Shown here one piece after another: positions 40,796 through 50,854 of a stretch of 64,000 nucleotides of DNA. A program made the position numbers and the translations under genes. How positions within the stretch are numbered: the stretch's first letter is position 1; the number at the start of each line of letters is the position of its first letter. Below the pieces are notes generated by a model, which saw only the letters and a program-made list of their open reading frames with translations, did not search any database and was not told the origin of the DNA. Source of the DNA: Vacuolonema iberomarrocanum LEGE 07170 (GTDB taxonomy: Bacteria > Cyanobacteriota > Cyanobacteriia > Elainellales > Elainellaceae); NCBI GenBank assembly GCA_015207365.1, contig JADEXA010000036.1:1-64000 (forward strand), in the 5' to 3' direction.

Positions 40796-40831
40796 TTAAG
40801 GATTGTTGCTTTGTTTCTCACATTTGAGACG
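40796..40831 (+). promoter_or_regulatory. upstream element shared by pebAB and cpeBA
   Basis: TTAAGGATTGTTGCTTTG followed by TTTCTCA (40796-40820) is identical to a sequence upstream of cpeB (read leftward from 50852). After a short variable spacer both continue TGAGACG, forming an inverted TCTCA/TGAGA pair. It lies 55-90 bases before the pebA start. It is probably the binding site of a regulator common to phycoerythrin and phycoerythrobilin genes. Confidence 0.7.
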
Positions 40832-40886
40832 CTGAATTATTGCATCTCCTATCCTCAGTTGTTAAGACAAATCCGTCTATCCATCT

Positions 40887-41618
40887 ATGTATCAACCTTT
40901 TCTGAACCATCTAGAGCAATCCCTTTTTCAGAAGTTTAATTTACAAGGTCGGCCTATTCCTCAAGGGCTTGCATCTCGGGTCAGCGAACGAGGCAAAAAC
41001 CCTGCCACAATTCAAAGCTGGTGCTATGAGTGTCCTGAGCTTCGCAAAATTCGCTATACCTATATTGATGCGGGTGCCAGTGCTCAGATTCTCAATAGCG
41101 TCATTTACCCCAGTCACCATTACGACTTACCCTTGCTGGGAATCGATTTTTTGTCGTTCGGACAGGTCAAAAACTTGATCGTCATGGACTTCCAGCCGTT
41201 GTTCCAGGATGAGGCGTATCTAGCTAAGTACATTCATCCGCTGAAAGGGCTACATGATCGGTATCCAGATCTGGCGCAGAACTTGGAAATGAAATTCTAC
41301 GATGCCAACCAGTACTTTTCAAAGTATTTGTTGTTTGCTAAAACCGATGCTGAAACGGTTAAAACGCAAGTGTTTGACGCATTTAAAGAGTACTTAGAGC
41401 TGTACTGGACGCTCCTAGACAACGCTGAGCCATTGGATGATCCGTCCGATATTCAACGGATTGTGAAAGCCCAGAAGGACTACGACCAATACAGCGCCGA
41501 TCGCGATCCGGCGTCTGGTTTGTTCAGCAGTTACTTTGGCCATGAATGGGCAGAGAACTTCTTGTACGGCTTTTTGTTTGAAGATGCTGTTCCCTTAGAA
41601 GCTGGGCTCGCCAGATAG
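40887..41618 (+). CDS. pebA: 15,16-dihydrobiliverdin:ferredoxin oxidoreductase
   Basis: PebA carries out the first two-electron reduction of biliverdin on the way to phycoerythrobilin. The 243-residue protein has the ferredoxin-dependent bilin reductase fold: IDAGASAQILNSVIYPSHHY, the catalytic Asp of YDLPLLGIDFLSFG, FGHEWAENFLYGFLFE near the end. It starts at 40887 (MYQPFLNHLEQ). pebB follows after 15 bases. Upstream is the element shared with cpeBA. Confidence 0.92.
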   Translation: MYQPFLNHLEQSLFQKFNLQGRPIPQGLASRVSERGKNPATIQSWCYECPELRKIRYTYIDAGASAQILNSVIYPSHHYDLPLLGIDFLSFGQVKNLIVMDFQPLFQDEAYLAKYIHPLKGLHDRYPDLAQNLEMKFYDANQYFSKYLLFAKTDAETVKTQVFDAFKEYLELYWTLLDNAEPLDDPSDIQRIVKAQKDYDQYSADRDPASGLFSSYFGHEWAENFLYGFLFEDAVPLEAGLAR

Positions 41619-41633
41619 TGATTAGGATTTGCC

Positions 41634-42383
41634 ATGACGCTTTATCAACCCTTTTTGGACTATGCGATCGCCCTCCTGCAGGAGCGCTTGGACTTAGCAC
41701 CCTATCCAATTCCAATGGGATTTGAGTCAAAATCGGCGATCGTCGGGAAGGGCAAGCATCAAAATGAAGTGCTGACCACCAGTTATGGGTATCAAGCGCC
41801 CAAGCTCCGGCAGATTCGTGCCGCGCATGTGCAGGGTGGCAGTGCTCTCCAGGTTCTAAATTTCGTAATTTTTCCCCAGCTCAACTACGATCTGCCATTT
41901 TTCGGTGCCGATCTTGTGACCTTGCCGGGGGGGCATTTGATTGCGCTGGATATGCAGCCCCTGTTTCGGGATGACGCCCAGTATCAGGAAAAATATACGC
42001 AGCCAATTCTGCCGATCTTTGAGTCCTACAAACCTCATTTACCCTGGGGTGGAGACTTTCCAGCAGAGGCTCAGCCCTTCTTCTCTCCCGCCTTTCTCTG
42101 GGCCCGTCCGCAACAAACGGACGTGGTTGAAACCCATGTCTTTGCGGCTTTCAAAGACTATCTTCAGGCCTATCTCACGTTTGTTGAGCAGGCCGAACCC
42201 ATCACCGATACGCAAACCCTCAAAAAGATTGAGCAGGCGCAACTGCGCTACTTGCACTATCGGGCTGAGAAAGATCCGGCACGGGGAATGTTTACGCGGT
42301 TCTATGGCTCTGAGTGGACGGAGGAATATATCCACGGCTTCTTGTTTGACCTAGAACGCAAGCTTGTTGTTGCTAAGGAGTGA
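41634..42383 (+). CDS. pebB: phycoerythrobilin:ferredoxin oxidoreductase
   Basis: PebB reduces 15,16-dihydrobiliverdin, channelled from PebA, to phycoerythrobilin. The 249-residue protein shows [20 protein letters not shown], the catalytic region [16 protein letters not shown], and [17 protein letters not shown]. It is co-transcribed with pebA (15-base gap). The order pebA-pebB is the standard one. Confidence 0.93.
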
Positions 42384-42632
42384 TTGGCTAAGGAATAGTG
42401 AAATGTTATGACTGCATTCGGATGGCGATCGCCCAAACGCCCAAAAAAAAACCGCTAGTAAATTATCCGCAAACGGCTTGTTAGCGAAACCGATTCTGCC
42501 TACGACGCCATCAGCCTTGTCCGGCAATGCTATGAACGTCGTTGCATGAGTCCGTGAGTTGTCCCAAAGAACGACGCAAAATTACGCAAAATCGCAAAAG
42601 ACAAACTAGGTCGAGTTATTCCCCCTCATCCC

Positions 42633-43457
42633 ATGAGTGACTCCTCTTCCTCCTTAATTCAGGCTGTAGAAGATGCTGACTCCGCTGCGCTGCTGGTCGC
42701 TGTACAAAATCTGGCAGCAGCTCGGCTGGAAGTGTCCATTCCCACTCTGGTTGCGACCCTGGGTTACAACAACTCGGGGGCGGCGATCGCCGCCGTCGAA
42801 GGGCTCATTCAGCTAGGAGAGCCTGCGGTGCCTGCTCTCTTGGAGCAACTGGATCGACAGAATCACGCCGCCCGAGCTTGGGCCATTTGTGCGCTGGCAG
42901 AAATTGGTGACCCTAGGGGCTTTATGACCTTATTAGGAGCAGCAACGGCTGATTTCTCTCTCCAGGTTCGGCGTGCGGCTGCGCGGGGACTCGGCACAAT
43001 GAAATGGCAATGGTTTCCTACAGACCTTGTAGAAATCGCTCAGGAAGAAGCGATGGAGGCACTGCTATTTGTTGCCCAGCAAGATGAAGAATGGATTGTG
43101 AGATATTCAGCCATTGCGGGGTTAGAAGCACTGGCAACAACGATTGCCAGAACGCATCCAGCGTGGGCAGCGCACATCCAGACCCAACTTGAACAATTGG
43201 AACGCAACGATAGCAGTTGGGCGGTGGGTGCTCGCGCTCGGATGGCTCAGCAGCAGCAACAGGCGGCAGAATCGTCCCTGCAGTCGTCAGACCCTAGGGA
43301 GGACGCATCCTCCCTAGGGTCTGAAACGAACTGGCAAATTACTCTAGAGAAACTCTACGATCGCAAGGGGCAGGAGCGCTTAGTTTTAGCGGAGGGCGAT
43401 CCACGCCGCTATCGTTCATTAGCCATGGCAATTTCTCAAAAGCTGGATACAACCTAG
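42633..43457 (+). CDS. CpcF-like HEAT-repeat bilin lyase subunit with C-terminal extension
   Basis: A 274-residue HEAT protein whose first 200 residues resemble Cpc[61 protein letters not shown] and [20 protein letters not shown]. No CpcE partner is nearby. After a Gln-rich stretch (residues about 207-218) there is a palindrome-encoded insert, then a C-terminal block ([20 protein letters not shown] to [14 protein letters not shown]) that I do not recognise. It probably works on a phycoerythrin subunit or as a chaperone. It lies between pebB and cpeF. Confidence 0.75.
43288..43323. repeat. 36-bp perfect palindrome within the coding sequence
   Basis: CAGACCCTAGGGAGGA and its complement surround CGCA. 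The element is exactly 36 bases, so it adds 12 codons without shifting the frame ([12 protein letters not shown] region). It resembles the intergenic hairpins and may be an inserted repeat in a tolerant linker. Confidence 0.75.
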
Positions 43458-49416: not shown

Positions 49417-49595
49417 AAAACCATTGATGACTTCGCAAAGTCATTTATTCGCAGAAAAACCTGAAGTTGAAAACAAAACAAACCTAGAGATTCTTGGTCA
49501 TCACTTAACCTAAAATCGGCAAAGTAACGGACAAAGAACCTCCAGGTCGACAAGGTTAATTTACTCTGTTATGCCACGAACGGCCTAGCCATCGA

Positions 49596-50090
49596 CTAGG
49601 ACAGAGAGTTGATGGCGTAGTCGAGCAGAGCGTTGTACTCGGTCAAGGCCTGAGCAGACATATCACGAGGAGAGCAACCCCGGTTACGAGCGAAGCTCAA
49701 AGCTTCAACATAAGGAGCAGTAGGCAGACCCAGAGCACGATAGACTTCACGCTGACCTGCAATACCCCACTCATCCAGAGGCCCCGTACCACCCACAACC
49801 AGGCAATATTGGAGCAAACGCATGTAGTGCTTAACGTCGCGCTGGCACTTGGCCTTGAAGGTATCGTTGGAGTTTGCTTCACCTTCATTGTTTAGGTAAG
49901 GATACTTCTTGATGCAGGCATCATAGGCTTCTTTCGCCACAGCATCCAGGTTTGCTGCCAGCTTCTCAGCCGCTTCCAAACGAGCCGCAGAGCGCTGGAT
50001 GGATCCTTGAACCGACTCTAGATCTGACGTGCTGGGGAAGCGGCCAGCCGCATCAGCAGCAGCGATCACGGTAGTAACAACAGACTTCAT
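49596..50090 (-). CDS. cpeA: C-phycoerythrin alpha subunit
   Basis: A 164-residue alpha subunit that forms the light-harvesting hexamer with CpeB. The two bilin cysteines are Cys81 ([13 protein letters not shown]) and Cys138 ([12 protein letters not shown]), the pair expected for C-phycoerythrin. It begins [20 protein letters not shown] and ends YALINSLS-like ([10 protein letters not shown]). It follows cpeB by 64 bases. A small CCTAG...CTAGG hairpin overlaps the stop (49584-49600). Confidence 0.97.
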
Positions 50091-50154
50091 TTCTTATATC
50101 TCCCAATAAAATTGTTGATTGGTGTTTCGTCTTTCTCTGAGCGATCAGAGAGAA

Positions 50155-50709
50155 CTAGCTCAGAGCGGAAATCACGCGATCGAAGTAGCTAGAAGCTTCT
50201 GCAACCAGGCTGGCGCAACGATCTTCTACAACGGGAGCGCCCATTTTGCGAAGCTTAGACCCTGCACGCGCTTCGCTGGGGGTGTCTTTGATGTGGGCAG
50301 CAGCCTGAGCTTTCATGATCTGCACGGCACGCACAGTAGAGGATGTGGGTACACCCAGAGCCGCGTAGGTCTCTTTTAGGCCGTTCAAGCAGCGATCATC
50401 CAGGACGGAAGCATCACCCGCCAACAGAGCATAGGTGACATAGCGCAGGATGATTTCAGCATCGCGCAGGCAAGCAGCCATGCGGCGGTTGGGGTAGCAG
50501 TTACCACCAGCTTGGATCAAACCCTGGTTTTCGCAAATCATTCCGGCAACGGCATCAGAAACCATGCAGCTCGCGTTGCTGGCGATCGCATTTACAGCAT
50601 CCAGACGACGGTTGCCACTTGCGATAAACGACTTGAGGGCGTCGATATCGCCGACAACAGAGGTGCTGGCATCAGCAGAAATTACAGCTCTGGAAAAAGC
50701 GTCAAGCAT
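50155..50709 (-). CDS. cpeB: C-phycoerythrin beta subunit
   Basis: A 184-residue beta subunit with Cys48 and Cys59 (doubly linked bilin), Cys80 ([20 protein letters not shown]) and Cys165 ([18 protein letters not shown]). Asn70 precedes CYPNRRM and corresponds to the Asn methylated in many beta subunits. It starts at the ATG at 50709 ([13 protein letters not shown]), preceded by GGAGAG; a Met five codons upstream is rejected. It is the first gene of cpeBA. The element shared with pebAB lies about 110-145 bases upstream. Confidence 0.97.
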
Positions 50710-50817
50710 TTCGCTCTCCTTCAAAATAGCTTTGTAAAACTCTTGCTTGTTGATTCAACAAGAAAACATTGTTGGCTCAGCAAGACAATACAGACCATAA
50801 AAGACAGCGAATATCTT

Positions 50818-50854
50818 CGTCTCAGTTATGAGAAACAAAGCAACAATCCTTAAC
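50818..50854 (-). promoter_or_regulatory. upstream element shared by cpeBA and pebAB
   Basis: Read leftward it is TTAAGGATTGTTGCTTTG, then TTTCTCA, a short spacer (TAAC) and TGAGACG. The first 25 bases equal those at 40796-40820 before pebA. It is upstream of the cpeB start by about 110 bases. It is probably an operator or activator site for CpeR or an associated factor. Confidence 0.7.

Follow-up and report, generated by a model that had tools for sequence, protein, structure and literature searches.

A promoter-like module common to cpeB and pebA in Vacuolonema iberomarrocanum and other cyanobacteria, and a strong candidate site of CpeR activation

The first 64,000 nucleotides of contig JADEXA010000036.1 of the cyanobacterium Vacuolonema iberomarrocanum LEGE 07170 (the window) carry genes for phycoerythrin, for the enzymes that make its pigment and for the candidate activator CpeR, and two of these genes, cpeB and pebA, are preceded by the same short DNA element, which is the subject of this paper. 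On the minus strand, from 50709 to 46242, lie cpeB, cpeA (an NCBIfam equivalog above cut-off), cpeY, a gene that we take to be cpeZ-like from its position behind cpeY, and a methyltransferase gene (46242-47450) that we presume may encode a phycobiliprotein asparagine methyltransferase; these genes probably form an operon. The pebA and pebB genes span 40887-42383 downstream of a CpeS-family lyase gene, and both are NCBIfam equivalogs above cut-off. Phycobilisome linker genes, cpeS, cpeT and cpeR occupy the minus strand from 31436 to 27348. We assigned cpeR from its place after cpeT, an order that is given in the title of Cobley 2002, and from the conservation of its family. The window encodes a second CpeR paralogue of 122 amino acids (23332-23700, minus strand), which is 73% identical to the first, CpeR1, over about 99 residues and sits among linker genes downstream of a G-box-like site near 25700; the genome that carries the element thus encodes CpeR as well, in two paralogues.

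The copy at pebA reads GTTAAGGATTGTTGCTTTGTTTCTCA-CATT-TGAGACG (40795-40831, plus strand), and the copy at cpeB has the same 26 bases followed by TAAC and TGAGACG (50854-50818, minus strand), the two aligning without a gap. A sequence-only reading of the window had reported an identical 25-mer upstream of both genes, followed after 4-5 variable bases by TGAGACG. The identity, the location at pebA and cpeB and the TGAGACG all hold, with some corrections: a G precedes the 25-mer, so that the shared run is 26 bp long; the cpeB coordinates were off by one (the 25-mer lies at 50853-50829); the variable gap is exactly 4 bases in each copy; and the conserved unit is larger than that reading saw, since it reaches a -10-like hexamer further downstream (Table 1). 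The shared element is confirmed as real. With up to three mismatches, an 18-mer of it occurs twice in the window, against 0.09 occurrences expected from shuffled sequences, and the 36-mer is found in the whole genome (6.93 Mb in 142 contigs) only at the pebA and cpeB places.

Table 1. Features of the window at and around the two modules; promoter numbering is inferred.
Feature	Position	Strand	Remarks
pebA promoter core, columns 2-24 (GTTA direct repeat, period 10, plus TTTGTTTC)	40795..40817	+	
pebA promoter TGAGAC, about -37 to -32	40825..40830	+	
pebA promoter -10-like hexamer TATCCT, 19 bases past TGAGAC	40850..40855	+	inferred start near 40862
pebA, first gene in pebAB	40887..41618	+	NCBIfam equivalog above cut-off
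cpeB promoter core, columns 2-24	50832..50854	-	
cpeB promoter TGAGAC, about -37 to -32	50819..50824	-	
cpeB promoter -10-like hexamer TATGGT, 19 bases past TGAGAC	50794..50799	-	inferred start near 50787
cpeB, ATG at 50709	50155..50709	-	NCBIfam equivalog above cut-off
cpeR, 147 amino acids, last in linker-cpeS-cpeT-cpeR cluster	27348..27791	-	candidate activator
repeated mobile-like element, about 96 bp	40683..40778		many copies in genome
predicted intrinsic terminator 3' of nblA	50865..50896	-	T-tail reaches cpeB element
nblA (phycobilisome degradation), directly upstream of cpeB	50975-51145	-	Pfam

Conservation of the element was followed at both genes in other genomes. The cpeB sample comprised the best 80 of 297 CpeB loci, taken from named genomes, of which one (L044, with 26 bp upstream) was dropped. 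All 79 usable loci gave a best pattern match of 18-27 of 28, compared with 13-17 for the reversed pattern, and their sites start 91-168 bases 5' of the ATG. An ungapped 72-column matrix retained 78 of the 80 cpeB sites, that of the window included, with L068 and L077 falling under the threshold. For 50 cpeB loci we looked for PebA in the same genome, and it was matched in all 49 genomes that were searched; upstream DNA was examined for 47, the exclusions being G395 (248 bp upstream), G431 (a PebB-like fragment only) and one of two pebA copies in G396. A matrix made from the cpeB sites alone recovered a pebA site, scoring above all shuffled controls, in 42 of 48 upstream regions (window included; 41 of the 47 others), and 27 of the 48 best positions begin 92-96 bases before the ATG. 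With a pebA matrix the low scorers were L114, L118, L124, L131, L148 and L151, which include Chamaesiphon polymorphus (L114), Phormidium tenue (L118) and Pseudanabaena sp. SR411 (L131). In C. polymorphus (L114, 1085-1500) cpeR lies directly 5' of pebA, and the search gave no module at that place. The two copies in the window share their 26 identical bp within 10 kb, as would be expected if one of two near promoters had lately been copied, or converted by the other, without any function; this explanation is already contradicted by the conservation across genomes, where both genes keep orthologous, mutually different sites with a fixed spacing to the -10-like hexamer in dozens of genomes, and we give it practically no credence.

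The whole module measures about 65 bases and consists of GTTAAGGATTGTTACTTTGTTTC, a gap, (T)GAGAC, 19 bases and TATnnT. We modelled it from nucleotide sequence in 68 columns (model R1) with 48 of 57 non-redundant sites; the nine deviant sites were left out, which favours a tight model. These 48 sites align gap-free over all 68 columns with the consensus TGTTAAGGATTGTTRCTTTGTTTCTCA-NNNN-TGAGAC-N19-TATnnT, and columns 3, 5, 17, 18, 21, 35, 57, 58 and 62 are invariant among them, columns 17, 18 and 21 falling within the TTTGTTTC block. What is conserved is a core of 23 bases, GAGAC, and a -10-like hexamer 19 bases on; the core contains a GTTA-type direct repeat with a period of 10 (GTTA in columns 2-5, GTTR in columns 12-15). 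The spacing of 19 bases between (T)GAGAC and TATnnT is the same at both window sites. Among the non-redundant sites column 62 is T at 33 of 33 cpeB and 32 of 32 pebA promoters, and TAT is present in 31 and 27 of them, respectively (58/65 together). Exact GAGAC occurs in 29 of the 33 cpeB sites but in 14 of the 32 pebA sites, and some sites have no clear GAGAC, so that the right half looks looser at pebA. In this alignment TATnnT behaves as a -10 box; if it ends at -7, the core would extend from -67 to -45 and TGAGAC from -37 to -32, and the module resembles a promoter in which an activator site borders directly on the -35 position.

The sequence-only reading had also taken TCTCA and TGAGA as the two arms of a pair, and the 23-base core ends inside the left of these arms. 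The pair is present in the two window copies, but as a functional unit the TCTCA-N4-TGAGA inverted repeat was rejected because its arms are neither conserved nor covarying: pairing was 0.739 at cpeB (0.743 when shuffled) and 0.531 at pebA (0.515 when shuffled), all five pairs are intact in 11/33 cpeB and 2/32 pebA sites, and the left arm decays at pebA. A ten-base periodicity of conservation, of the kind that contact with one face of the helix would leave, was not significant (p 0.78 at 10.0).

Searched against the whole genome, R1 returned two sites, those of cpeB and pebA (E 8.7e-16 and 9.2e-15), and no third target up to E 10. It has no match upstream of the cpeR-bearing linker cluster, which is consistent with the linker operon being reportedly independent of CpeR, and none at the G-box-like stretch near 25700, in agreement with the earlier remark that the element does not resemble a CcaR-like site there. 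We then surveyed 388 genomes of the class with strict filters, by which weak sites may be lost. The pattern with at most three mismatches was present in 27 genomes and the reversed-pattern control in none, and R1 was found in 96 of the 388 genomes at E <=0.01 and in 77, from 16 family codes, at E <=1e-4. At E <=3.7e-4, 128 sites were listed, and 116 of the 121 that could be classified by their downstream gene precede cpeB or pebA (shortened cpeB copies, for example L230, being counted as cpeB). Six of the unclassified sites have their downstream side 26-528 bases from a contig end (G370:C824, G137:C705, G311:C601:182, G217:C85, G367:C380:239 and G003:C648), and behind the seventh (G076:C9) no open frame was found. 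Across 16 family codes the element thus looks specific to cpeB and pebA, as had been supposed, with almost no sites at unrelated promoters, and the refuting condition named in the sequence-only reading, an occurrence ahead of many unrelated genes, did not come true. The module contains a -10-like hexamer and has TGAGAC at the -35 position, as a general promoter or sigma-factor element might; strong complete matches are, however, almost missing elsewhere in the genomes, and we judge it very improbable that the module is such an element rather than a specific activator site.

Sites with other surroundings are few. In L098 (at about 1500) a complete module is not followed by any phycoerythrin gene, the genome having CpeR and lacking PebA, and in L256 the module stands before an apparent CpeB/CpeA remnant in a genome without either protein; both look like relics of lost phycoerythrin operons. 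The site in L241 has no gene from the window set behind it. Weak full-length modules precede a rod-core linker gene in L267 and L272, from genomes without CpeR and PebA, and the same arrangement was seen at L302. In two Pseudanabaena-group genomes (L293, about 1375; L294, about 1447) a site that covers only columns 1-25 (E 0.0015) stands before a methyltransferase relative, the encoded protein being 71-72% identical to the methyltransferase that the window encodes downstream of cpeB; if the partial site is real, the methyltransferase gene would be a third member of the regulon. Weak partial matches in three f24 genomes (L295, L298 and L299) are mutually alike and seemingly represent a repeat.

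The distribution of the module follows that of CpeR, which is encoded in 71 of the 77 module genomes versus 46 of the 311 others (Fisher p 1e-38). Module score also rises with CpeR score (Spearman 0.74, n=94, leaving out the V. iberomarrocanum genome itself, 22 f2 genomes and the weak match G057 at E 0.009), a correlation that has to be qualified because such a trend also arises from common ancestry and from distance to the model. The 22 f2 genomes (2.1-2.9 Mb), which are taken as picocyanobacteria from their size and gene order, encode a CpeR that is 34-43% identical. The module is absent from all of them at E 1e-4, and when 18.1 kb upstream of cpeB, pebA and, in eight genomes, mpeB-like genes was searched unfiltered in 11 of the 22, nothing came below E 3. 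We regard the module as a strong candidate for the place on the DNA where CpeR acts to switch on cpeB and pebA jointly, and we think it probable that cpeBA and pebAB share a dedicated class of CpeR-dependent promoter that is activated at this element. The proposal of the sequence-only reading that CpeR or a partner reads the element is supported at the level of genome association.

Several results weigh against a dedicated CpeR-dependent promoter class. Six of the 48 pebA upstream regions have no site by the cpeB-derived matrix, and a scan with a sigma-70-type consensus (TTGACA, 16-18, TATAAT) gave no match at either module. CpeR was not detected in six of the 77 module genomes, three of which (G293, G305 and G317, with fragmented assemblies) carry PebA. 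Of the 114 PebA genomes, 106 also have CpeR, and as the two are nearly inseparable any other factor restricted to phycoerythrin producers would fit the distribution equally well; 39 of these 106 genomes (22 f2 and 17 others) are without the module at E 1e-4, and 12 of the 17 have no entry among the module matches listed. A weaker module precedes a rod-core linker gene in G338, a genome that is 99% complete and has neither PebA nor CpeR, and, below the cut-off, in G184 and G022, which belong to one genus. These modules in CpeR-less genomes indicate that part of the module is read by something other than CpeR.

The protein itself adds to these objections. CpeR has no convincing Pfam or NCBIfam match and no recognisable DNA-binding domain, a sequence search found no relative in PDB, and no CpeR relatives with which to deepen the alignment were found in viral contigs. 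Two AlphaFold2 models, made with nine sequences, reached a mean predicted local distance difference test (pLDDT) of 54.7 for the full-length protein and 64.8 for the core, and suggest with low confidence that the core is built as helix-strand-strand-helix-strand-strand. Neither has a reliable structural match: the best Foldseek E values were 0.011 and 0.012 and the best VIA Z scores 7.5 and 7.6, below 8 in each case, and the top families differ between the models, LAGLIDADG proteins leading for the full-length one and others for the core, so that we assign no fold. A LAGLIDADG match to the full-length model (Z 7.5, root-mean-square deviation 3.6, 82 aligned residues) concerns the model whose pLDDT is only 54.7, and LAGLIDADG is not among the 50 matches listed for the better core model. 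A weak similarity between CpeR and CpcD (E 0.1-0.2) was unconfirmed by Pfam or PDB sequence search and was discarded. That CpeR has no known DNA-binding domain would fit a separate, uncharacterised binder, such as the reported RcaA/PepB activities, of which CpeR is the partner or regulator. No gene for such a protein was identified in this analysis, no paper that combines RcaA, RcaB and phycoerythrin came up in the literature searched, and we consider this arrangement improbable.

The direct repeat and the linker promoters bear on another explanation, in which an OmpR/PhoB-type regulator (RpaB or RcaC-type) alone binds the GTTA repeat and activates, and CpeR acts indirectly, for instance via that regulator or through chromophore status. 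The two half-sites, 10 bases apart, would lie at about -67 to -50, and a FEMS review (PMC13421787) describes RpaB as an activator when its HLR1 site, KTTACAWW-N2-KTTACAWW, lies at about -45 to -66, with cpcG1 as a listed target. An RcaC L-box is described upstream of pebAB in another strain (PMC8256508), the V. iberomarrocanum genome has an RpaB-family gene above the cut-off, and the weaker modules 5' of rod-core linker genes in CpeR-less genomes fit an OmpR-type reader. Those linker promoters (three genomes, two of one genus) keep the repeat, a TAnnnT -10 and partly GAGAC, and are changed at columns 17, 18 or 21. The latter columns, which belong to the TTTGTTTC block and do not vary among the 48 aligned sites, speak against a reader of the repeat alone, as does a poor fit to HLR1: column 17, where HLR1 calls for A, has that base in 0% of 33 cpeB and 3% of 32 pebA sites, agreement at columns 6-8 is limited to 19-42% of sites, and the module site ranks first, alone or tied, among the HLR1 matches of its upstream region in no more than 12 of 33 cpeB and 12 of 32 pebA cases. 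A general regulator also leaves unexplained why only two promoters of the genome carry the full module. We regard activation by an OmpR/PhoB-type regulator alone as unlikely.

Unrelated features abut both modules upstream and set a limit to the two promoters on that side. About 16 bases separate the copy of the mobile-like repeat from the pebA module, and the stem of the nblA terminator is separated from the cpeB module by its T-tail alone, so that sequence information specific to these promoters and upstream of the -10 probably lies within the module alone. The mobile-like repeat at 40683-40778 is near-identical to another 96-bp copy at 31922-32017, both with a perfect 18-bp hairpin; genome-wide, 40 long copies were scored, and a first look had given 268 candidates. 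Between the lyase gene and pebA, near other palindromes, there is a perfect 27-bp inverted repeat with a 3-base loop (40544-40600).

The reading that we favour, a dedicated CpeR-dependent class, would make the element the activator-binding part of a promoter class common to the cpeBA and pebAB operons. An activator sitting on the 23-bp core, at about -67 to -45, would extend to the TGAGAC at the -35 position and there substitute for a consensus -35 box, holding RNA polymerase on the TATnnT -10 box, and the outcome would be that phycoerythrin apoprotein and its phycoerythrobilin pigment are produced together. The specificity factor would most likely be CpeR, the product of the linker-cpeS-cpeT-cpeR cluster, which may either bind the core itself or bind beside an OmpR-type response regulator; the latter, if involved, would recognise the GTTA-N6-GTTR direct repeat. 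A composite of this kind, in which the response regulator occupies the repeat and CpeR the stretch from TTTGTTTC to GAGAC, is plausible. More tentatively, and with somewhat less than even confidence, we suggest that CpeR may represent a new class of activators that bind DNA, its conserved core of roughly 100 residues reading GTTAAGGATTGTTACTTTGTTTC by the -35 position, and that its regulon may be essentially two promoters in most phycoerythrin-making cyanobacteria outside the picocyanobacteria. If true, a two-promoter regulon would couple phycoerythrin protein to pigment.

No DNA site for CpeR and no element shared by cpeB and pebA is described in the literature searched, which was thin in subscription journals. 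Footprinting of the cpeBA promoter, reportedly done in 1993, and the binding activities RcaA and PepB of 1990s extracts, in which proteins reportedly protected cpeBA promoter DNA, may cover part of the same DNA, and the description of the element as the long-sought target of CpeR, given in the sequence-only reading, is to be softened accordingly. As an activator site with strict promoter geometry the module stands out because it is almost restricted to two promoters and because the biochemistry of the activator to which it is tied is poorly characterised. The analysis supplies a precise 23-bp core with the -10 in register and two native promoters in most of the suitable strains examined, together with natural variants and lineages that have no module, and the question of whether CpeR binds DNA, at which place and with which partner becomes one of short experiments. 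It also suggests that one promoter class could couple a light-harvesting protein to the enzymes making its own pigment.

Among known systems the nearest is that of Fremyella. Activation of cpeBA by CpeR is already known, and pebAB is likewise CpeR-dependent. Cobley 2002, which PMC4443024 and PMC2246261 cite, states in its title that cpeBA expression in Fremyella needs CpeR, and CpeR has been known as the activator of phycoerythrin genes for more than 20 years. The genes are the same, as is the activator gene that ends the linker cluster; here the linker cluster has no site, cpeB and pebA have one each, and the module differs in being defined by comparison across genomes and known from sequence alone. 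The CcaR G-box, CTTTCCGATTTCTTTACGATTT (PMC8256508), is similarly a cis site of light-regulated phycobilisome genes and by eye has a counterpart in the stretch near 25700, where the module model, in contrast, has no match.

Two further comparisons concern direct repeats. The L-box of RcaC, with the consensus TTGTCA-N4-TTGTCA, resembles the module in having two hexamers with four bases between them and differs from it in their sequence, which is TTGTTA-like in the module. It is described as regulating both pebAB and cpc2 during type III chromatic acclimation (PMC8256508). The HLR1 site of RpaB, whose consensus is also given in PMC11633204, shares with the module a GTTA-type direct repeat with a period of 10; its activating position is about -66 to -45, and the repeat of the module would fall at a similar place if the -10-like hexamer serves as the -10. 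The module was rejected as a member of the HLR1 class, with mean matches of 11.5 (cpeB) and 11.3 (pebA) of 16 positions (shuffled 6.6, 95th percentile 10). It differs from HLR1 in failing at column 17 and being weak at columns 6-8, and it adds the TTTGTTTC block, GAGAC and a -10 at a fixed distance.

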